Source of the DNA: a virus
Virus record (IMG/VR): IMGVR_UViG_3300009068_000100
Location: 1-33,914 of that record
Strand: one strand, 5' to 3'
DNA length: 33,914 nt
Shown here: piece by piece, positions 4,656 through 33,914 of the stretch
Layout: each line of letters opens with the position of its first letter
Numbering within the stretch: the stretch's first letter is position 1
Notes under the pieces: generated by a model
Databases searched by the model: none
What the model saw: only the letters and a program-made list of their open reading frames with translations
Told to the model about the DNA's origin: nothing
Position numbers and translations under genes: made by a program

Positions 4656-4805
4656 ATGGCTAAACCCGGACTCTACGCCAACATCCATGCCAAGCAGGCT
4701 CGCATAAAAGCGGGTAGTGGTGAGAAAATGCGCAAACCCGGAACTGCGGGCGCTCCTACGGACAAGGCGTTCAAGCAATCGGCCAAGACGGCCAAGAAAA
4801 AGTGA
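4656..4805 (+). CDS. Small basic conserved phage protein, 49 aa
   Basis: A short reading frame that fills the gap between two structural genes: MAKPGLYANIHAKQARIKAG at the N-terminus and a lysine-rich end (KQSAKTAKKK). It is very basic (many K and R, few acidic residues), so DNA or RNA binding or a role in packaged DNA is possible. I recall similar short proteins of the MAKPGLYANIHAKR type in many phages, with no known function. It starts 4 nt after the upstream TAA, and its TGA overlaps a GTG at 4802. Coding reality is supported by tight packing and the recognisable N-terminus. Confidence 0.8.
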   Translation: MAKPGLYANIHAKQARIKAGSGEKMRKPGTAGAPTDKAFKQSAKTAKKK

Positions 4806-4813
4806 GAACTGAC

Positions 4814-7800
4814 ATGGCAGCAGATCAAGGAATCATGGCCCTACCGGAAGCCGCACAAGTGCAGCAACCGCAACTAGGGTTGGACGATGCTTACGATGCC
4901 GTACGCAGCGGGGTCCAAGAATCGTTGCCCGAGGCTGCTGGTCTGTTGCAGCAGGGCATGGACCAGATCCTGCCCGATCTGCAAGAAATGACGGATGAAA
5001 ACCTTGATCGGTTTTTGCAGATTGTCCAATACATAAACGATAACCCGGAAAAGTACGCAGAACTGGTTGCTCAACTTGTTGAAAAGGGGCTGGTGGATGA
5101 GGGGGATTTTCCTCCGGAGTATGACCCTGAGTTTTTGGCATCGTTGGGCGCGGTCATTCTAGAAGCACGTCGTTCTAGGAAGATGAGCCAGCCACAGCAA
5201 TTTGCTCGAGGTGGTCTGGCATCACTTGGCCGTGGCAACGATACGATGTTGGCGCACATCAGCCCGCAAGAAGCGCAATTGCTTAAGCGGCATGGCGGAA
5301 CGGGAACGATTAATCCCAATACGGGACTGCCTGAGTACAACTGGTGGACTGAACTGCGCGACAGCGTTACTCAGCCCTTCAAGTCTGTGATCAAAGGTGT
5401 CAAAAGTGTTTTAAAAAGCCCTATTGGAAGAATTCTTGCCACGGTAGCTTTGGCCGCGTTCCTCGGTCCGGGGGCATTGGGTTTTTCTGGGTTGGGCTTG
5501 GGTTCTTTGGCGATGCCCTTGGCTTCCGGAGCGGTGACCGCGCTTAGTGGTGGGAACCTTAAGGATGTTTTGAAGAGTGCAGCGGTTGGGTATTTGGCAG
5601 GACCAACCAGCCCAATTAGTACTGCTATTGGTGCGGGACTCGGAGCCGTTGCTCCGGGCCTAAGTAATCTGGCACAGACAGCGTTGTCAAGCGGTTTGGC
5701 AGGGACAACTGTCGGGCTGTTGTCCGGACAAAATCTTAAGCAGGCGGTTGGCACTGGCTTGATATCCGGCTTAGGTACTTATGCGTCGGCAACGTTTGGT
5801 ACTAAGCTTCCTGCGGTGGAAGGAATTGAGCGCGGCATGGGGTATAATCCTGCCGATTCTGCGGCGCTTGATGCCCGTGAAGCAGCTATAGAAGCAGGTT
5901 TAACTCCGGGGCAACCGACAGGATTTGGAACTCCGGCGGAAACAGGCCCTGTTCCTTCCCGTATTAATACTGCTCCGGGCAGTACTTCGGCTTCCGTTGC
6001 CCCACCTGTTACACCCGGGGTTGCTCCTGCGCCAATTTCTGCTCCCGCAACGGGCGCTCCTTCTACCGCCCCCACCGCAGTAGCGGCACCCGGCGCATAT
6101 CAACGGCCCTTGGGGATTATGGAAGGGTTCCAGCAGAAAGGGTTTGTGGGCGGGTTGGAGAATGCATTTATGCCTGCGTCTCCTACTGATGCGCAGATTA
6201 TGTCTTCTCCGGAATTCCAGAGCTACAAAAACGCTGGATTCTCGGCAAAAGAAGCCTTGTCTAAGGCTTCTGAAGCCATGGGCGCTCCGGGGGCAATCAG
6301 AACGTACGCCCCGCTGGCAGCAGCGGGTCTTGGCGTTATGGGGCTGTCTGGGGGTTTCAAAAAAACCCCAGTCAAACTAGATCCTAATCAGCAGGCGATG
6401 CTTGATAACGTTGCTGCTGCACGAAAAAGGGTTGCAGATAACCCCGGAGATTATTACGCCAAGGGTTTGGAGAAGTTTGGTATTCAATATAACGAAAAGG
6501 GGGAGATTGTTGGATCTAACCCTTGGTATTCGCCTTATCGCATGAACGATGTTCGAGTTGAGAGCAACGCGATCAGCCCATACATGATGACGCCTCAACC
6601 TCCAGTGACCGCGTACCGCGGTTATGCCAAGGGTGGAGCGGTGGACGAGCCTCGGTTTTTCATAGATTCCGATGGCCAAATGCAACAGATTTTTGGTTCT
6701 CCTGATACTGGGGCAGATAGTTCCAGTTATGACCCTCTTTCGGGATATGTCCAACCGGTTGGGAAATTATTTAATGACTCGGACATTCCTGTTACGGGCA
6801 TAGAAGGTATTGACACCTCAATGACAGGTGGGATGGGTCCCTCTATTCCCGGTGGGGATGTCACAGGTGGGGGGGATGTTTCTGTTGCTCCCGGTGGGGA
6901 TGTCACAGGTGGGGGAGATGTTTCAGTTGCTCCCGGGGGAATTAGCAACGTTTCTGGAATAGATACTACGGTTTCTCCGGGCGGGATTGCTACGCTTCCT
7001 CAAACAACCGGTAACGGTTATTACCAAACTGTAGATGACTCGCAAAACGGCGGGAGCGTTTATCAGGTCTGGGTTCCATATGATATGCGAGACACAGGCC
7101 CTTTTATTACGGGTGGAATCGGAAACGATTCTATAGTAAGCGGGAACACCAACGACTCTATAGTAGGTGGTAACACCAACGACTTTATCGTAGGCGGGAC
7201 AGGGAACTCTTCTATAGTAGGTGGTAACACCAACGACACTATAGTAGGCGGGACAGGGAACTCTTCTATAGTAGGTGGTAACACCAACGACACTATAGTA
7301 GGCGGGACAGGGAACTCTTCTATAGTAGGCGGAAGGGGCAACGACACTATAGTAGGCGGGACAGGGAACTCTTCTATAGTAGGCGGAAGGGGCAACGACA
7401 CTATAGTAGGCGGGACAGGTAACTCCTCTCTAGTAGGCGGAAGGGGCAACGATCTTTCTGTTTATGGCCCTCCAAACCTTAACACTGTAGTAGGCGGAAC
7501 CGGTAACGACACTATAAGGGGTGGGACGGGTGGAGCTACTGTCCCTCTTAGTGGTCCTGGATCGGCTGGCCCTCCAATTACGACTTCCCCTCCACTTTCT
7601 CCAGCCAACCAAAGAACTTCTTTGTTAGAGCAACTGGATCTGCAAAGAAATGCACTTGCTGGAGCAGGTTTTGGTACCGCTGCATATACAAATGCTTCGC
7701 AAAAAATTGCCAGCCTTAATAATCAACTGACCGATTTAGATTATCAACTTGCTCATCCAGCAGGAGTGTTGTCTGCGGCACAAACAGCAGGGGAAACACA

Positions 7801-8287
7801 AGGTAAAGACTTAGCTAACCGGATGTATCCAAGTTTAGATACGGGTACGGTAGCAAGACCGGGGGCGGCTGCGGCAATGTTCCCAAGCGCAATGACTGCG
7901 CCTCCTGCTTTTTCCTCTGCTGCCCCAGTTACGGGTACAGCTACTCCCCCAACTTCATACAATAGTTCAGACCCCTACACCAATGCCAGACTAACCACAG
8001 CAGGAATTGCGGCACTTCCAGTTGGTACGCCACCTGCAACTCCTCCGGTTACAAAAGCTGCCGGGGGAATTGCCTCTTTGGCGCAAGGAGGGTATCCTAG
8101 GATGACGGGAGCGATCAACGGTCCGGGGACCGAGACTTCCGATTCTATCCCTGCCATGCTGTCCAACAATGAATTTGTGTTTACCGCCAAAGCGGTCCGC
8201 GCAGCAGGTGGAGGCAGTGCTCGTCAAGGAGCAAAACGCATGTACGCTCTAATGCATCAACTTGAACGAAACGCGGCCCGGGGATAA
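4814..8287 (+). CDS. Large internal/tail virion protein with RTX-like nonapeptide repeats
   Basis: About 1157 residues. In order: an acidic helical N-terminal region (DENLDRFLQIVQYINDNPEK, about 60-80); the block FARGGLASLGRGNDTMLAHI (about 130); a long hydrophobic Gly/Ala-rich stretch (about 195-325) that could cross or insert in membranes; Pro/Ala-rich linkers; a 14-residue tandem duplication (6851-6934); 16 RTX-like 9-10-residue repeats (about residues 767-911); and a C-terminal block GPGTETSDSIPAMLSNNEFV...AVRAAGGG, which recurs at the end of phage tape-measure and internal virion proteins. It probably takes part in DNA ejection or tail assembly. GTG at 4802, overlapping the upstream stop, is an alternative start; ATG 4814 gives MAADQGIMALP, which looks more natural. 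Confidence 0.6.
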   Translation: MAADQGIMALPEAAQVQQPQLGLDDAYDAVRSGVQESLPEAAGLLQQGMDQILPDLQEMTDENLDRFLQIVQYINDNPEKYAELVAQLVEKGLVDEGDFPPEYDPEFLASLGAVILEARRSRKMSQPQQFARGGLASLGRGNDTMLAHISPQEAQLLKRHGGTGTINPNTGLPEYNWWTELRDSVTQPFKSVIKGVKSVLKSPIGRILATVALAAFLGPGALGFSGLGLGSLAMPLASGAVTALSGGNLKDVLKSAAVGYLAGPTSPISTAIGAGLGAVAPGLSNLAQTALSSGLAGTTVGLLSGQNLKQAVGTGLISGLGTYASATFGTKLPAVEGIERGMGYNPADSAALDAREAAIEAGLTPGQPTGFGTPAETGPVPSRINTAPGSTSASVAPPVTPGVAPAPISAPATGAPSTAPTAVAAPGAYQRPLGIMEGFQQKGFVGGLENAFMPASPTDAQIMSSPEFQSYKNAGFSAKEALSKASEAMGAPGAIRTYAPLAAAGLGVMGLSGGFKKTPVKLDPNQQAMLDNVAAARKRVADNPGDYYAKGLEKFGIQYNEKGEIVGSNPWYSPYRMNDVRVESNAISPYMMTPQPPVTAYRGYAKGGAVDEPRFFIDSDGQMQQIFGSPDTGADSSSYDPLSGYVQPVGKLFNDSDIPVTGIEGIDTSMTGGMGPSIPGGDVTGGGDVSVAPGGDVTGGGDVSVAPGGISNVSGIDTTVSPGGIATLPQTTGNGYYQTVDDSQNGGSVYQVWVPYDMRDTGPFITGGIGNDSIVSGNTNDSIVGGNTNDFIVGGTGNSSIVGGNTNDTIVGGTGNSSIVGGNTNDTIVGGTGNSSIVGGRGNDTIVGGTGNSSIVGGRGNDTIVGGTGNSSLVGGRGNDLSVYGPPNLNTVVGGTGNDTIRGGTGGATVPLSGPGSAGPPITTSPPLSPANQRTSLLEQLDLQRNALAGAGFGTAAYTNASQKIASLNNQLTDLDYQLAHPAGVLSAAQTAGETQGKDLANRMYPSLDTGTVARPGAAAAMFPSAMTAPPAFSSAAPVTGTATPPTSYNSSDPYTNARLTTAGIAALPVGTPPATPPVTKAAGGIASLAQGGYPRMTGAINGPGTETSDSIPAMLSNNEFVFTAKAVRAAGGGSARQGAKRMYALMHQLERNAARG
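6851..6934. repeat. Tandem 42-bp duplication in virion gene
   Basis: Two adjacent 42-bp units (6851-6892 and 6893-6934) that differ at only two positions (ggg/gga and tct/tca). Each encodes GGDVTGGGDVSVAP. The near identity at silent sites indicates a recent duplication. It lies just ahead of the larger nonapeptide array. Confidence 0.9.
7112..7546. repeat. 27-bp tandem array encoding RTX-like nonapeptides
   Basis: Thirteen consecutive 27-bp units (7112-7462), one degenerate 30-bp unit (7463-7492) and two more 27-bp units (7493-7546). The peptides alternate between GGTGNSSIV and GGNTNDTIV or GGRGNDTIV, the latter matching the GGxGxDxUx calcium-binding repeat of RTX proteins. Units 4-12 form a 54-bp higher-order repeat that is almost identical at the DNA level, a sign of recent expansion or homogenisation. 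The 27-nt period keeps all frames free of stops, which explains the long spurious antisense frame here. Confidence 0.93.
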
Positions 8288-26374: not shown

Positions 26375-26561
26375 TTTCCACGTCCTTCATCGTCGCTAAC
26401 GCTCCTTGGAACGCCGTTTCCATGATCTCCAACATCTTTTCCCTCATCAAATCCACCGACTCCCCAGTGGCCGACAAATGCTGCAACTCCCGAGCCTTCA
26501 AACCTAAATGCACCACCGCATATGCAACCGACTGCGCCTGCCCTTGTGTCAACCCTCTCAT
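26361..26561 (-). CDS. Small unknown phage protein, 66 aa
   Basis: An all-helical protein (LTQGQAQSVAYAVVHLGLKA, then DLMREKMLEIMETAFQGALA). No motif recognised. ATG overlaps the stop of the winged-helix gene (ATGA), so it is probably translationally coupled to it. Confidence 0.72.
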   Translation of the reverse strand: MRGLTQGQAQSVAYAVVHLGLKARELQHLSATGESVDLMREKMLEIMETAFQGALATMKDVENEGL

Positions 26562-26848
26562 GCTTCGCTCCCTTGTAACTGATCAATGACCGCGGACCGG
26601 GGCAAGTTGCGCAAATAGTAGGCATACCCCGGTTCACCATTTAAATAAAAATCCTCCCTGTCCCGAATGCTGTAAGCAAACTTCTTATCTACCTTCCTGC
26701 GCGACAAAATTCCAGCTTCAAACATCCTGATCAGGTTGCTGTCTACCGTTTTTCTGTTTGTGCTCAAAACCTTAACGTCCCGGGACTTTGTTTCCCCGTT
26801 CTCCAACAAGAAATCCAATATTTTACTAGTCAAGTCTTTTTCGTTCAT
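26558..26848 (-). CDS. Winged-helix DNA-binding protein, putative regulator
   Basis: A 96-residue protein. Residues 5-62 read as a winged helix: LTSKILDFLLENGETKSRDV (helices 1-2), STNRKTVDSNLIRMFEAGIL (recognition helix region) and SRRKVDKKFAYSI (wing). A likely small transcription regulator; its targets are unknown, the repeats and promoters of this genome being candidates. It overlaps its neighbours by 4 nt on both sides (ATGA). The CGGACCG tandem heptamer lies within its 3' end at 26588-26600. Confidence 0.65.
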   Translation of the reverse strand: MNEKDLTSKILDFLLENGETKSRDVKVLSTNRKTVDSNLIRMFEAGILSRRKVDKKFAYSIRDREDFYLNGEPGYAYYLRNLPRSAVIDQLQGSEA

Positions 26849-28932: not shown

Positions 28933-29241
28933 TTATCCACCATTCTTCTCCTTCAACTTTTGTTCAATCAGGATGTAGAACGACAACAAACCCCCATCAC
29001 CAAGCTGTCCAAGAATGGTCTGATACTCCTCATCATCAAGAGTCTGCCAACCAGCGGCAACGGACCGCGGACCGGTGTTTTTATCCTTTAACCGCTGCTC
29101 GATGCTGCGGATCAACCGTTCACTGACAAATCGATTGACCTGAAAGTCTTTGATTTCCTCTTCTTCGAGCCCCACCCATCTGCGCGGAACCATGCTCGCC
29201 AGATCAGTCAAAAACTCCCTCAAAACTTCTTTCCTCGTCAT
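28933..29241 (-). CDS. Unknown phage protein with two WVGL/KEKN-type modules, 102 aa
   Basis: It starts MTRKEVLREFLTDLASMVP, then RRWVGLEEEEIKDF...IEQRLKDKNTG, then GWQTLDDEEYQTILGQLG... IEQKLKEKNGG. The ending is nearly the same as in the 27350-27661 gene. The CGGACCG tandem heptamer (29061-29075) falls between the two halves. Function unknown. ATGA overlap with the upstream gene; a 21-nt gap follows before the SGNH gene, one of only two gaps in the operon. Confidence 0.75.
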   Translation of the reverse strand: MTRKEVLREFLTDLASMVPRRWVGLEEEEIKDFQVNRFVSERLIRSIEQRLKDKNTGPRSVAAGWQTLDDEEYQTILGQLGDGGLLSFYILIEQKLKEKNGG

Positions 29242-29408
29242 CGCGCTCCCCCATTAAACCCAGACGGATTCAGTTTTTTGTAACACGTCTCACACTTCCA
29301 CCGATACCCTTTGGTGGCCACGTTGTACGTACGGAACTTTGCCGAGGCCCTCTGACACTGCTGACACAAAGGTGGTGTCTTCTCCTGCGTTTTTTCAACC
29401 GTCTCCAT
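29238..29408 (-). CDS. Small zinc-ribbon protein, 56 aa
   Basis: METVEKTQEKTPPLCQQCQR is followed by RWKCETCYKKLNPSG. Two CxxC knuckles (C15, C18, C39, C42) about 20 residues apart make a classical zinc ribbon. GAAGGGG lies just ahead of the ATG, which overlaps the upstream gene by 14 nt; the TGA overlaps the next ATG. Possible nucleic-acid or protein-binding role. Confidence 0.78.
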   Translation of the reverse strand: METVEKTQEKTPPLCQQCQRASAKFRTYNVATKGYRWKCETCYKKLNPSGFNGGAR

Positions 29409-29628
29409 CAATCACCCCTTCATTAATAGGCACCGTGTTACCCGCTTCCCACATGCCAAAAGCTTTGCGCCACAAAGTTCTCTCTATTTCCACCGTGTGT
29501 GTTTTGTGTCCACAAGAAAGACACACCACTCTCCTCTCTACCCAAGGAAAATTTCCTTCCGCATCCCCAGATCGATACTGGCGCGTATCCACAGTCCTCA
29601 TCTTTCCAAAACAATTCGGACAATTCAT
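29395..29628 (-). CDS. NrdR-like zinc-ribbon protein, 77 aa
   Basis: It starts MNCPNCFGKMRTVDTRQY and continues ERRVVCLSCGHKTHTVEIER. CPxC...CxxCG with RxYR..D between is the layout of the NrdR/TFIIS-like zinc ribbon. The ATP-cone domain of full NrdR is missing. A small regulator or adaptor is possible. ATGA overlap with the upstream gene. Confidence 0.78.
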   Translation of the reverse strand: MNCPNCFGKMRTVDTRQYRSGDAEGNFPWVERRVVCLSCGHKTHTVEIERTLWRKAFGMWEAGNTVPINEGVIDGDG

Positions 29629-30235: not shown

Positions 30236-30378
30236 GTGGGGGGACAACCGTGCGATGTTAGCGAAAGTGGATAATTTTTGCTTAAAATTTAGGCAAAAGA
30301 GGGGGTTTTACAGGAAAAACGAATTCCTATAGAACTTTTGAGGATATAGGTGATTTTTTTTTCAAATTTGTGAGATTT

Positions 30379-30466: not shown

Positions 30467-30508
30467 TTTCTGGGGAGATCCGCGAGAAAAGGAGGTGAAA
30501 AAAAAAAC

Positions 30509-30535
30509 ATGCCTATGTCCTCAAAAGTTCTATAG
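30509..30535 (+). other. Eight-codon mini-ORF behind a full Shine-Dalgarno match
   Basis: AAGGAGGTGA (30489-30498) matches 10 nt of the anti-Shine-Dalgarno; after an A-run comes ATG 30509 and MPMSSKVL then TAG. The frame lies almost entirely in the right arm of the inverted repeat. The spacing (13 nt after GGAGG) is long. It could be a leader peptide or chance. Confidence 0.25.
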
Positions 30536-30679
30536 GAACTCGTTGTTTGGGGCTGCTTGATTTCTGTTTGATGCTGGCGGACCGCGGACCGAGGATTTAC
30601 GCGGCCTTGCGGGGAGGGGTTGTGCTTTGTGTGCCAAATGAGGTACGATTGAGCCTGTTGCCTACGGAGTCAACTGATT

Positions 30680-30901
30680 GTGTTTAACATAGACAAAAAC
30701 GTGTCCCAGCCAAAAGGCAGGACAAGATACCCCTTCAACCAGATGGAAGAGGGGGACTCGATTCTGTTCAAAGACTTTGGACAGGCTAAATCGGCCCGTG
30801 TGGCCGCGTTGCGGTTCGTCCGAAGGCATAGGCCTAACTGGGCATTTACAGTGCGCCACGTGCCCGCTGAAGACGGCTGGCGGCTATGGAGGACTGCATG
30901 A
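30680..30901 (+). CDS. Conserved small phage protein (YPF..M..GDS type), 73 aa
   Basis: GTG 30680, with GGAG ten nt upstream. Blocks: RTRYPFNQMEEGDSILFKDF, ARVAALRFVRRHRPNWAFTV, DGWRLWRTA. This layout (YPF..M..GDS, an AAxRF helix, then WxFxxRxV and WRxWR) recurs in small phage and plasmid proteins, as I recall; basic and probably nucleic-acid binding. Function not known. Its stop overlaps the terminase start (ATGA), so the two are coupled. Confidence 0.78.
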   Translation: MFNIDKNVSQPKGRTRYPFNQMEEGDSILFKDFGQAKSARVAALRFVRRHRPNWAFTVRHVPAEDGWRLWRTA

Positions 30902-31566
30902 CAAAGAAGGACGTTTGGAATGTCCCTCCTGTCATACCCCCTAAGGTAGCAACGCGGACCGCGGCCGTTGTTCCGAAGCTGCGTGCTGCAAAGACGCTGA
31001 CGGCCAAAGAGTGGAAGTTTGTTCAGGAGTACGTGAGCGGCGATGGCCGGGTAACGCTTAAGGATGCCGTGAAGGCCGCGGGGTTTGAGACTACGAATCC
31101 TAGTGTTAAAGCGTGGCAGCTAACGAACCCGAAGCTGAACCCACATGTGGTGGCCGCGATCCAAGCTTATCGGGCGGAGTTGGCATCGAAGTACAACACC
31201 ACTTATGACCGGCATATGCGGGATTTGCAGATCATTCGCGATAAGGCCATCGAGGCTGGGGCGTTTGCTGCCGCGGTCAACGCTGAGTATCGGCGGGGGC
31301 AGGCCCTCGGAACTATTTACGTTGAGCGCAAAGAGATCCGGCACGGGACGATTGACTCGATGAGTAAGGAAGAGGTTGAGCGCAAGTTGGACGAGCTTAA
31401 ACGCCTGTATGGCCCTGCCCCCACTGCGATCATCGATGCGACCACTGGCGAGGTTACTGACACGCTTGCCAGAGAGATGGACCCGGCTTTTGATCCCGGG
31501 GTCGAAGAACCCCCTGAAGACATCATGGAGATGATCGATGCCAGCACCGAAGAAACGGAAAACTGA
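30898..31566 (+). CDS. terS: Terminase small subunit
   Basis: A 222-residue protein. Residues 34-93 match the N-terminal DNA-recognition region of Terminase_2-type small subunits: LTAKEWKFVQEYVSGDGRVT, LKDAVKAAGF, NPKLNPHVVAAIQAYRAEL. A helical oligomerisation region follows (RHMRDLQIIRDKAIEAGAFA) and an acidic C-terminus (EEPPEDIMEMIDASTEETEN) that would contact the large subunit. It selects viral DNA for packaging. ATG 30898 is preferred to 30886: GGAGG is five nt ahead and it overlaps the upstream stop (ATGA). No large subunit gene follows in this window. Confidence 0.78.
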   Translation: MTKKDVWNVPPVIPPKVATRTAAVVPKLRAAKTLTAKEWKFVQEYVSGDGRVTLKDAVKAAGFETTNPSVKAWQLTNPKLNPHVVAAIQAYRAELASKYNTTYDRHMRDLQIIRDKAIEAGAFAAAVNAEYRRGQALGTIYVERKEIRHGTIDSMSKEEVERKLDELKRLYGPAPTAIIDATTGEVTDTLAREMDPAFDPGVEEPPEDIMEMIDASTEETEN

Positions 31567-31966
31567 AGCAGAGTTCTCAGCAGTGGTCAGGAAGGCCCTT
31601 CCCGGGGCCTCAGTGACGCCGTTAGAGTCTCGGGTTACCCTAGGGTTACCCGACCTGCTTGTCGCGCTCCCGGGGCGTTTTGCGATGGTTGAGTTGAAGG
31701 TGACTTATACCAAGAGCGTGTTCATGCGCCCCCATCAAGTTGCCTTCATAGTCAAGCACTGGAATCTTGGTTGCCCGGTCTATTTGTTGGTGAGATATCG
31801 CGAGGATGATATTTGGGAAAAGGGGGACACGCGGGCCATTCTGTTTGAGGGGTGTCGCATTCCTGAACTGTTGACTAAGCACGCTGATCGAGTGCCGTCT
31901 ATTGGGGACTGGCCAATCGATAAAGTAGACTGGCAAAAGATGGTTGACCTGATGGATCGAAGGTAG
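31538..31966 (+). CDS. VRR-NUC-like / PD-(D/E)XK small nuclease
   Basis: A 142-residue protein. The core GLPDLLVALPGRFAMVELKV gives D39 and the E52-x-K54 pair, the classic PD...ExK site of VRR-NUC and resolvase-like nucleases; RPHQVAFIVKHWNLGCPVYL follows as the conserved helix and strand. A structure-selective or Holliday-junction nuclease is likely, perhaps resolving DNA before packaging. The ATG overlaps the terminase gene by 29 nt, with GGAG seven nt ahead, so both are made from one message. Confidence 0.8.
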   Translation: MPAPKKRKTEAEFSAVVRKALPGASVTPLESRVTLGLPDLLVALPGRFAMVELKVTYTKSVFMRPHQVAFIVKHWNLGCPVYLLVRYREDDIWEKGDTRAILFEGCRIPELLTKHADRVPSIGDWPIDKVDWQKMVDLMDRR

Positions 31967-32028
31967 GGAAAGTACCTAGTTGATGGGCACCCCAGGTAGT
32001 GTTATAGTGTCCTCACTGCATGTTGCAG
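31964..32028 (+). promoter_or_regulatory. Promoter P1 of the repeated family, with 5' hairpin
   Basis: Upstream box TAGGGAAAGTACCTAG (31964-31979), -35 TTGATG (31980-31985), 17-nt spacer ending AGTGT, -10 TATAGT (32003-32008, extended by TG). Six nt later ACTGCATGTTGCAG starts, in which CTGCA (32016-32020) pairs with TGCAG (32024-32028), placing a hairpin at the predicted transcript start. It leads to the gene at 32048. Confidence 0.85.
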
Positions 32029-32047
32029 CCAACCAAGAGAGGAAACG

Positions 32048-32284
32048 ATGATCAAGTGTGTATTCAAAGAAGACACGGCTAAGTGGGAAGCTTCTTACTA
32101 TGAGTCTGATGGTAGGCAGCTAGGACCGTCTTGCGATGGCGAAACCCAGCATGACGCGATCTGGAACCTTGGACATAGGATGGGATCATATCCCCATAAG
32201 TATGCAAGGGATCTGGGCGAATACTTTGATTCCAATCATCTGTTGAAACAGATGCATGAAGACAGTGGATTGAGGACTGTTTAA
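32048..32284 (+). CDS. Unknown small protein under promoter P1, 78 aa
   Basis: GAGAGG lies six nt ahead of ATG 32048. The sequence begins MIKCVFKEDTAKWEASYYES and continues HRMGSYPHKYARDLGEYFDS. A mixed alpha/beta, slightly acidic protein. Not recognised. It is a single-gene unit: P1 ahead, and an 11-bp inverted repeat plus P2 just behind. Confidence 0.72.
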   Translation: MIKCVFKEDTAKWEASYYESDGRQLGPSCDGETQHDAIWNLGHRMGSYPHKYARDLGEYFDSNHLLKQMHEDSGLRTV

Positions 32285-32289
32285 CTAAT

Positions 32290-32316
32290 GTCAACTAGGG
32301 AAAACCCCTAGTTGAC
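32290..32316 (+). repeat. Perfect 11-bp inverted repeat overlapping the -35 of P2
   Basis: GTCAACTAGGG (32290-32300) and CCCTAGTTGAC (32306-32316) are perfect reverse complements around AAAAC. The right arm contains the -35 hexamer of P2. No T-run follows, so an operator is more likely than an intrinsic terminator, though either could also limit read-through from the upstream gene. Confidence 0.85.
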
Positions 32317-32361
32317 TCCCCCTTGTGGCAGTGTTATAGTGTCTTCACTGCATGGTGCAGT
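32296..32361 (+). promoter_or_regulatory. Promoter P2 of the repeated family, with 5' hairpin
   Basis: Upstream box TAGGGAAAACCCCTAG (32296-32311), -35 TTGACT (32312-32317), 17-nt spacer ending AGTGT, -10 TATAGT (32335-32340, TG-extended). Six nt on, ACTGCA (32347-32352) pairs with TGCAGT (32356-32361) around TGG. It leads to the gene at 32381 behind GAGG. Confidence 0.87.
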
Positions 32362-32380
32362 CAATAAAGAGAGGATAGAG

Positions 32381-32782
32381 ATGGATATGAGCAGAAAACC
32401 CCAGTGGTACAAACTGACCCGGAATGTTGAGAACACTAGCCGGGACCGTCGATACACTGATAGCTGGTTATCTTGGCCCTTTTTGCCAAAGGGCATGATG
32501 ATTGAGGTGTGGCCCTCATACAAGGATTCGCCGGACGACAATGATCCTCGGATCATCTACATTGGTCGGCATTGCGTGTTTTCTGATGGCCTTCAGGATG
32601 CGCTGATTGATGCCGCGGTGCCCATCACTGGTGAAACCTTTGAGGAGTTGTGTAAGCTTCACGGGTTTGGAAGCAGCACGTCACGGGATGCCGCGGTAGA
32701 GGTTCTCGAGCACGCTATGTGTAAGGGGTGGTTGACCAAGGAGCAGGTCATTGAGGGCCTACAAGCGTGGGAGAAAATCTGA
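32381..32782 (+). CDS. Unknown protein under promoter P2, 133 aa
   Basis: ATG 32381 (MDMSRKPQWYKLTRNVENTS) behind AGAGAGGATAGAG; the frame is open upstream, but that part is the promoter. Aromatic and acidic first half (SWLSWPFLPKGMMIEVWPSY), helical end (DAAVEVLEHAMCKGWLTKEQ). No domain recognised. Coupled to the following gene by TGATG overlap. Confidence 0.72.
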   Translation: MDMSRKPQWYKLTRNVENTSRDRRYTDSWLSWPFLPKGMMIEVWPSYKDSPDDNDPRIIYIGRHCVFSDGLQDALIDAAVPITGETFEELCKLHGFGSSTSRDAAVEVLEHAMCKGWLTKEQVIEGLQAWEKI

Positions 32783-32994
32783 TGATCTTACGACCTACTT
32801 ACGACGAGGAATTCGAGCAGCCCTACAGTATCGAGGCCGCGATTAAACAGTGGGCCTTCGATGTTGGCCGTGATCGCCGGGAGGTTGAATGGCTGTTGTC
32901 GCCTTATGACACGTGGGAGAGGAATCCCTTCTACAAAGGGGAGCCGCAGCCAAACCCGGAAGCGTATCAGGACCTATATTATGGGGACTACTAG
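32782..32994 (+). CDS. Small acidic unknown protein, 70 aa
   Basis: ATG 32782 overlaps the upstream stop (TGATG) with GGAG eight nt ahead. The sequence MILRPTYDEEFEQPYSIEAA continues with a helical and then Pro/Tyr-rich end (NPFYKGEPQPNPEAY). Acidic and aromatic; unknown function. Second gene of the P2 unit. Confidence 0.7.
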   Translation: MILRPTYDEEFEQPYSIEAAIKQWAFDVGRDRREVEWLLSPYDTWERNPFYKGEPQPNPEAYQDLYYGDY

Positions 32995-33007
32995 GGGTAA
33001 ACCCTAT

Positions 33008-33074
33008 AAGGGAAACTACCTAGTTGCACAGGCGGTCAAGTAGTGTTATAGTATTATCACTGCGAGTTGCAGTG
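33008..33074 (+). promoter_or_regulatory. Promoter P3 of the repeated family, with 5' hairpin
   Basis: Upstream box AAGGGAAACTACCTAG (33008-33023), -35 TTGCAC (33024-33029), 17-nt spacer ending AGTGT, -10 TATAGT (33047-33052, TG-extended). CACTGC (33058-33063) pairs with GCAGTG (33069-33074). It leads to ATG 33094 behind GAGGAG. Confidence 0.85.
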
Positions 33075-33093
33075 AATTATAGAGGAGAATGTG

Positions 33094-33291
33094 ATGGTGG
33101 TTATGATTGTTCCGATCAAAAAAGCAGGCAAAACGTCCGGGTGGATTGTCTGCACAAAATTTGGAATGCGGTATCAGGGCGAAACCCAAGACAAACTGTA
33201 TTCCTCGGAATACTACGGAATACCGCAAGAAAAGCGGACATTCCGTACTTTAAAGGCCGCAAAGGCCTACGCTGGTGTGGGGAGGGACTGA
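33094..33291 (+). CDS. Small unknown protein under promoter P3, 65 aa
   Basis: GAGGAG lies six nt before ATG 33094 (MVVMIVPIKKAGKTSGWIVC); GTG 33091 is an alternative. A short basic beta-type protein ending FRTLKAAKAYAGVGRD. Not recognised. Its stop overlaps the next ATG (TGATG). Confidence 0.7.
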   Translation: MVVMIVPIKKAGKTSGWIVCTKFGMRYQGETQDKLYSSEYYGIPQEKRTFRTLKAAKAYAGVGRD

Positions 33292-33515
33292 TGCAATATC
33301 AACCTGCCTTCAATATCTGGGCCATGCCTTATTCTGTTTATAAGCATATTCAACCCGGGCAATGGGTATATGCCGGAACAAAGGAAAGTGTCGGGCGGTT
33401 TATGGGCGTCAAACCTAGCGGCACCGTCGTGGTGGCGTGGTTAAACAATGCTCGAAACCATGATAAACCTAGCGCCTATTTTAAAACCCTTCGCGATTAC
33501 GCCATCGGGAGATAA
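33291..33515 (+). CDS. Small unknown protein, 74 aa
   Basis: ATG 33291 overlaps the upstream stop and follows GGAGGG. The sequence MQYQPAFNIWAMPYSVYKHI continues with GQWVYAGTKESVGRFMGVKP and an Asn-rich turn. The same frame runs open back to 33024 through P3, but that part is promoter and not coding. Function unknown. Confidence 0.7.
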   Translation: MQYQPAFNIWAMPYSVYKHIQPGQWVYAGTKESVGRFMGVKPSGTVVVAWLNNARNHDKPSAYFKTLRDYAIGR

Positions 33516-33517
33516 CC

Positions 33518-33748
33518 ATGCGATTATTTGACGACATTACGCAACCTGTTGATTCTGTGCCTGATTTTGTTCGTGCCGATTTTGACTACCCCTGTGCCAC
33601 TGTTTACGCTGACAGTGGCGAGGGCGAGGTGCTCGAGTTCGATGTGGAGACTTATGGGTGCCAGCGGGATTTTGTGATCGCGGTACGCGACGCAGCCCGA
33701 AGAATGGCCGAAAAAATAGGTTGCGAATGGGGAGACAACCTGTTATAG
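33518..33748 (+). CDS. Small acidic unknown protein, 76 aa
   Basis: ATG 33518 is 2 nt after the previous stop, with GGGAG six nt ahead. The sequence MRLFDDITQPVDSVPDFVRA continues with SGEGEVLEFDVETYG and a helical C-terminus (IAVRDAARRMAEKIG). Acidic. Promoter P4 overlaps its last codons, and the stop TAG is part of the -10 box. Confidence 0.72.
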   Translation: MRLFDDITQPVDSVPDFVRADFDYPCATVYADSGEGEVLEFDVETYGCQRDFVIAVRDAARRMAEKIGCEWGDNLL

Positions 33749-33749
33749 T
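33721..33749 (+). promoter_or_regulatory. Promoter P4, divergent member of the family
   Basis: -35 TTGCGA (33721-33726), 17-nt spacer ending TGT, -10 TATAGT (33744-33749). AGGTTG (33719-33724) and CAACCT (33736-33741) form an inverted repeat over the -35 and spacer. TCAC and GTGA after the -10 are a weaker form of the P1-P3 hairpin. It lacks the upstream box. It leads to ATG 33785 behind GAGAGG. Confidence 0.75.
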
Positions 33750-33784
33750 GTTATCGTCACAACCTAGAGTGAAGAGAGGAAATT

Positions 33785-33914
33785 ATGCTAAAGACTGTAG
33801 CGGTATCAGGCAACGGGAAAACCGGACCAATCGCGGTAACGTACCGCAGCGGCGAGCATTCAATATTCGGCACGTGTCCGAAGTCCTGTGCATTGAATCC
33901 GAAGGGCGAGCATA
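33785..33914 (+). CDS. Conserved phage protein, 5' part only
   Basis: ATG 33785 behind GAGAGG; 43 codons are visible before the window ends: MLKTVAVSGNGKTGPIAVTY, then GTCPKSCALNPKGEH. The KTGPIAVTYRSG and CPKSCALNP blocks recur, as I remember, at the start of a phage protein family of unknown function. The paired cysteines could bind metal. The domain and length cannot be judged from this fragment. Confidence 0.72.
   Translation, partial: MLKTVAVSGNGKTGPIAVTYRSGEHSIFGTCPKSCALNPKGEH

Follow-up and report, generated by a model that had tools for sequence, protein, structure and literature searches.

The window, the whole 33,914-nt stretch of freshwater-phage DNA analyzed here, ended in a rightward series of small genes next to a small-terminase-like gene (30886-31566) and a nuclease-like gene (31538-31966); in the related contig G001, the other flank of this series was the large terminase. 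The genes formed units, each preceded by one of four promoters designated P1-P4, with the following features.

31964-31979, + strand: upstream box of P1, TAGGGAAAGTACCTAG
31980-32008, + strand: P1 core promoter, TTGATG, 17 nt, extended -10 TGT-TATAGT
32015-32028, + strand: predicted start of P1 (A32015) and 5' hairpin, CTGCA-TGT-TGCAG, about -5 kcal/mol
32036-32050, + strand: ribosome-binding site AGAGAGGA and start codon of the P1 gene
32048-32284, + strand: P1 gene, 78 aa, no family match
32296-32311, + strand: upstream box of P2, TAGGGAAAACCCCTAG
32312-32340, + strand: P2 core promoter, TTGACT, 17 nt, TGT-TATAGT
32347-32361, + strand: P2 5' hairpin, ACTGCA-TGG-TGCAGT
32381-32782, + strand: first gene of P2, 133 aa, no family match
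32782-32994, + strand: second gene of P2, phrog_36991
32995-33006, + strand: second, shorter box upstream of the P3 box, GGGTAAACCCTA, kept in relatives
33008-33023, + strand: upstream box of P3, AAGGGAAACTACCTAG
33024-33052, + strand: P3 core promoter, TTGCAC, 17 nt, TGT-TATAGT
33057-33075, + strand: P3 5' hairpin, TCACTGC-GAGTT-GCAGTGA, the strongest in the window
33091-33748, + strand: P3 unit of three small genes (33091-33291; 33291-33515, phrog_21585; 33518-33748)
33721-33749, + strand: P4 core promoter, TTGCGA, 17 nt, TGT-TATAGT, no box, overlapping the end of the preceding gene
33757-33772, + strand: weak P4 5' hairpin, TCAC-8-GTGA
33785-33914, + strand: P4 gene, truncated at the window end (its length in relatives, 233 aa)

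A near-identity search with the window gave no isolated phage, and the nearest annotated phage was DSL-LC04, a lake metagenome assembly whose DNA polymerase was 69% identical (PMC10611076). The metagenome bins with related contigs included Burkholderiales and Rhodoferax, together with likely mis-bins.

One gapped pattern of 56 nt fitted P1-P3 exactly: a 16-nt box, a TTG directly 3' of it (31980, 32312, and 33024), a spacer of exactly 17 nt ending in AGTGT, a TATAGT (32003-32008, 32335-32340, and 33047-33052), 6 nt, and ACTGC...TGCAG, with ACTGC at 32015, 32347, and 33059. With up to three mismatches allowed, the combined pattern still had just these three matches in the window and none in 100 dinucleotide shuffles, which bore out a preliminary description of this DNA in which the three sites aligned without gaps and the box began 16 nt before the -35 element in each. 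P4, with TTG at 33721 and TATAGT at 33744-33749, kept the -35 element and the 17-nt spacer and lacked the box, as also described. The family of four described there was real and incomplete: two further promoters, P5 and P6, were located past the window end in relatives, each with an 18-nt spacer, AGTGTTATAAT, and a -10 element of TATAAT, and the family has at least six members. P1-P6 all agreed with a sigma70 promoter of the extended -10 type (TTGnnn, 16-18 nt, TGn-TATAnT), having TGT-TATAGT or TGT-TATAAT after 17 or 18 nt, one per unit of one to three genes; the earlier attribution to host polymerase was supported. The 5' ends of P1-P4 were predicted at about 32015, 32347, 33059, and 33756, and the P1 start, given earlier as 32014, was corrected to 32015 under a 6-nt discriminator. 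A leftward promoter was also seen in the window (30239-30206, - strand; TTGACA, 17 nt, TGT-TATCGT), without the box present at the leftward promoter of relatives.

A scan of 2.9 million viral contigs for box plus core matched only three contigs, and P1-P4 were found in the same order in all of them. G003 was nearly identical to the window, with one difference in the last 2 kb, whereas G001 (45 kb) and G002 (32.5 kb) had strongly diverged spacers. Because P1-P4 were kept in all three relatives, including the two with diverged spacers, the elements are maintained ones rather than recent copies. In pairwise comparisons of P1-P3 among the three lineages, the spacer differed by 31% and the sequence further upstream by 14%, but the box by 6%, the hairpin by 2%, and TTG and AGTGTTATAGT by 0%. 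This is the footprint expected of functional elements, and the upstream element noted earlier is real in that sense. The suggestion that the cassettes move as units was not supported: the order P1-P6 was constant in the three relatives, and in one of them the P3 unit was shorter and nothing in it corresponded to the 74-aa gene (33291-33515), yet promoter P3 was retained. The sample consisted of metagenome contigs, with predicted start sites.

In the window genome, the box occurred only at P1-P3. It was near-palindromic and extended to an 8-bp dyad in P2. As the pattern AGGGWWA..MCCTA, it had 23 non-redundant matches in phages related by their polymerase, as against 0 for the reversed pattern, and 22 of the 23 preceded a start codon (a script placed 19 near a ribosome-binding site and start, and 3, namely P3 and its orthologues, were read by eye); with one exception, the orientation relative to the gene was constant. 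The gap between this pattern and the -35 element measured 1 nt in P1-P3 and likewise in L202. In another ten phages (L129, L130, L131, L132, L136, L142, L151, L160, L170, and L179), most of them otherwise diverged in sequence, it was exactly 22 nt at the leftward promoter. The box adjoined the -35 element in P1-P3 as first described, and a second fixed distance had been missed. The box centers, at about -43.5 in P1-P3 and about -65.5 in the relatives, were two helical turns apart. L130 and L151 had a second site about 9 nt from the -35 element; in helical phasing from the -35 element, gaps of 1 and 22 nt fit and this one does not.

We doubt that the box is a repressor operator or the remnant terminator of the preceding gene rather than an activator site, although its near-palindromic form, the 8-bp dyad in P2, and its place beside the -35 element would suit such roles. 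The exact 22-nt distance in ten relatives is too far for simple repression by occlusion, which the distal position therefore disfavors; no T run follows the box, and neither the boxes nor the hairpins had the GC stem and T run of an intrinsic terminator. Orientation and distance were, moreover, fixed relative to the downstream gene. An activator site is the reading we prefer. At activator-dependent promoters of class I and class II of the CRP type, the site of a dimeric activator lies farther upstream or adjoins the -35 element, and by analogy the box may resemble these in that the same dimer-like site adjoins the -35 element or stands about two helical turns upstream; unlike them, it has a third spacing of about 9 nt.

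Several other leads on the box were followed. The window encodes a winged-helix-like protein (26558-26848, weak Pfam matches), which was rejected as the binder since it was not found in other box-bearing phages, and the winged-helix-like and zinc-ribbon proteins of the window were rejected as a set because they were not common to the other box phages. In 300 Burkholderiales genomes, the box had 14 non-phage matches as compared with about 22 for the reversed control; with no general enrichment there, a general host motif was rejected. One 2-Mb Burkholderiales genome, G122 (L220, L227, L228, and L229), had four exact copies of the box, some in front of transport genes, possibly the sites of a cellular regulator with the same specificity. 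The box-only pattern in all viral contigs gave 87 stretches, about the number estimated by chance, and was set aside. A search of open-access papers, outside whose scope most subscription journals fall, gave nothing relevant on the box or on phage-wide 5' hairpins, and the box and the clade-wide combination of parts appear to be undescribed.

The ACTGC...TGCAG element was present as first described; what had been missed is that it is best read as a hairpin formed by the RNA where the transcript begins and that such hairpins occur throughout the clade. In P1-P6 the hairpin began 4-8 nt past the -10 element, which places it at the predicted transcript start, and its sequence varied between promoters. 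Those of P1 and P2 were modest (-5 to -6 kcal/mol) and that of P4 was marginal, while those of P5 and P6 reached -14 to -23 kcal/mol. In the phage's own group, 34 hairpins started at offsets of 4-8 nt, as against 2.2 expected. A wider set comprised 357 promoter-like sequences of relatives whose DNA polymerase was about 70-76% identical, and hairpin starts there had a sharp peak at 6 nt (41) and 7 nt (37) over a background of 6.9. When sites were chosen independently, by the ribosome-binding sequence AGAAAGGATAG alone, there were 76 non-redundant starts. Of these, 47 were followed by a hairpin with an energy of -4 kcal/mol or lower, compared with 19.6 in shuffles, and for 24 the energy was -8 kcal/mol or lower, compared with 3.0; the -10 element peaked 5-7 nt before the hairpin. 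The strongest test is the comparison of P4-gene orthologues from 20 phages: a hairpin of -4 kcal/mol or better lay at offset 4-8 in 10 of them, with arms of unrelated sequence (shuffles, mean 0.9 and maximum 3), and none such lay upstream of the other half. Paired changes pointed the same way, structure being kept while sequence changed: the P4 arms TCAC/GTGA were TCTT/AAGA in G001, two paired changes, and two more were found in the hairpin at the leftward promoter of L139 and L142. The predicted hairpins left 0-2 unpaired 5' nucleotides, given the predicted starts and with P4 marginal, and exposed the ribosome-binding site. Rfam gave nothing convincing, and in the YuA-like phage LKO4, with only six promoters, there was no clear hairpin peak (2 versus 1.4 expected).

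It is quite unlikely that the ACTGC...TGCAG dyad acts as a start-site DNA operator for a phage repressor, with no RNA structure. Its arms were common to P1-P3 in all three lineages, as those of an operator would be, but unrelated arms stood at the same offset in P4, P5, P6, and the promoters of relatives, and the two paired changes at P4 in G001 also argue against an operator; among odd pairs within stems, G-U was commoner than A-C (12 to 5), which is suggestive only and not decisive. Nor do we find it probable that the hairpins are antitermination signals for elongating RNA polymerase, like HK022 put or a lambda-type leader, rather than stability elements: they do open phage transcripts at a fixed offset from the promoter, but put sites are larger and sequence-constrained, whereas the hairpins here are single short stems of changing sequence, and the units are only one to three genes long. 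That the resemblance of P1-P3 reflects nothing but recent duplication of one promoter segment is very improbable, for although the box, -10 element, and hairpin arms are common to them, their spacers have almost nothing in common, and it is the orthologous spacers that diverged and not the elements.

We therefore return to a single model, to which we give a probability of roughly 60%, of sigma70 promoters with an activator-like upstream site and an mRNA-stabilizing 5' stem-loop. P1-P4, together with P5 and P6, would be host sigma70-type promoters with an extended -10 element, each firing one small gene unit, and the stem-loop would come 0-2 nt from where the mRNA begins, immediately before the ribosome-binding site. 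RppH and RNase E both require a single-stranded 5' end, and 5' structure stabilizes mRNA (PMC3997798); the stem-loop most likely deprives these enzymes of such an end, and the short messages would be stabilized, and long-lived, because that end is denied. A putative dimeric regulator would most likely bind the box of P1-P3, centered at about -43.5, and, through contact with RNA polymerase, activate the P1, P2, and P3 units together. Sequence comparison established the elements and showed that they are conserved and spaced at fixed distances; the regulator is a postulated one, its origin from the phage, as suggested earlier, is conjectural, and we infer activation by it rather than repression. 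The broader proposal, that a clade of freshwater phages expresses small-gene units from hairpin-bearing promoters, some coordinated by an undescribed activator that reads TAGGGWAANNMCCTAG at two positions, either adjoining the -35 element or two helical turns further upstream, is put forward tentatively, as a possibility with the odds somewhat against it.

The E. coli ompA and papA leaders are 5'-terminal stem-loop stabilizers of mRNA (Emory, Bouvet and Belasco 1992, as cited in PMC3997798), and the hairpins here are similar in having few or no unpaired 5' nucleotides before an exposed ribosome-binding site. Unlike those leaders, the hairpin here recurred at the majority of promoters in one region of a phage and throughout a clade, with changing sequence, and stabilization would be its presumed effect. 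LUZ100 has early promoters of the host sigma70 type (PMC10134795), which likewise follow the host-polymerase consensus upstream of small hypothetical genes; the present promoters differ in their extended -10 element with a TTG-only -35 element, the coupled 5' hairpin, and the upstream box. In DSL-LC04 (PMC10611076) and the Pelagibacter phage HTVC023P, small genes that each have a gap in front of them likewise lie between the genes of the small and the large terminase, but their ribosome-binding sites are different; promoters are not mentioned in the main texts on these two phages, and the exact box AGGGAAA...CCTA was not found in the DSL-LC04 stretch examined.

Judged from sequence, this is a real, conserved regulatory architecture assembled from known kinds of parts. 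It offers a testable rule for small-gene expression in abundant, mostly uncultured phages, in which promoter and 5' hairpin form a single unit with the ribosome-binding site, and, if the model is true, mRNA protection would be a general phage strategy rather than an isolated leader effect. The box provides a handle for finding a new regulator, and for phages that lack a transcriptome the hairpin rule is an aid in placing promoters and the starts of transcripts on the genome.

Other promoter elements were observed in relatives. A second repeated promoter type had an A-rich AAAAAA(T/A)CAATTGGAC adjoining the -35 element, and hairpins, for example CGTCGC...GCGACG, came after it; one phage had four copies that resembled one another (L028 7250, 7872, 8648, and 9566), and the type was present in L160, L188, L193, L195, and L207. 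In L122 (13313, 13636, and 14233), palindromes of about 20 bp overlapped the -35 element of three promoters, the second copy having, for example, CTATTGACGCGCGTCAATAG, and a hairpin of 11-13 bp came after each; this palindrome is possibly an operator specific to that phage. At the rightward promoter of L131, L132, L139, and L157, a GCAAGGT...ACCTTGC dyad filled the spacer between the -35 and -10 elements. Very strong hairpins of 12-15 bp at L136 15096 and L130 16927 had the likely -10 element in the loop region, with the arms flanking it in the DNA. An unrelated 210-kb phage contig had the same promoter-hairpin layout (L036, around 6173, - strand; TGTTATAGT, 6 nt, ACTGCGATGTGCAGT), either convergent or borrowed.

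The AT-rich gap that separates leftward from rightward genes in the window contained a 48-nt inverted repeat (30315-30362 and 30500-30547; 85% complementary, 137 nt apart), a candidate origin or switch. The matching gap of DSL-LC04 (L200, about 29000-29430) had a different inverted repeat, there too with CCTATAG-type ends. Within the gene at 4802-8287, which encodes a long virion-type protein, a NDTIVGGTGNSSIVGG-like motif was repeated at 7063-7449.
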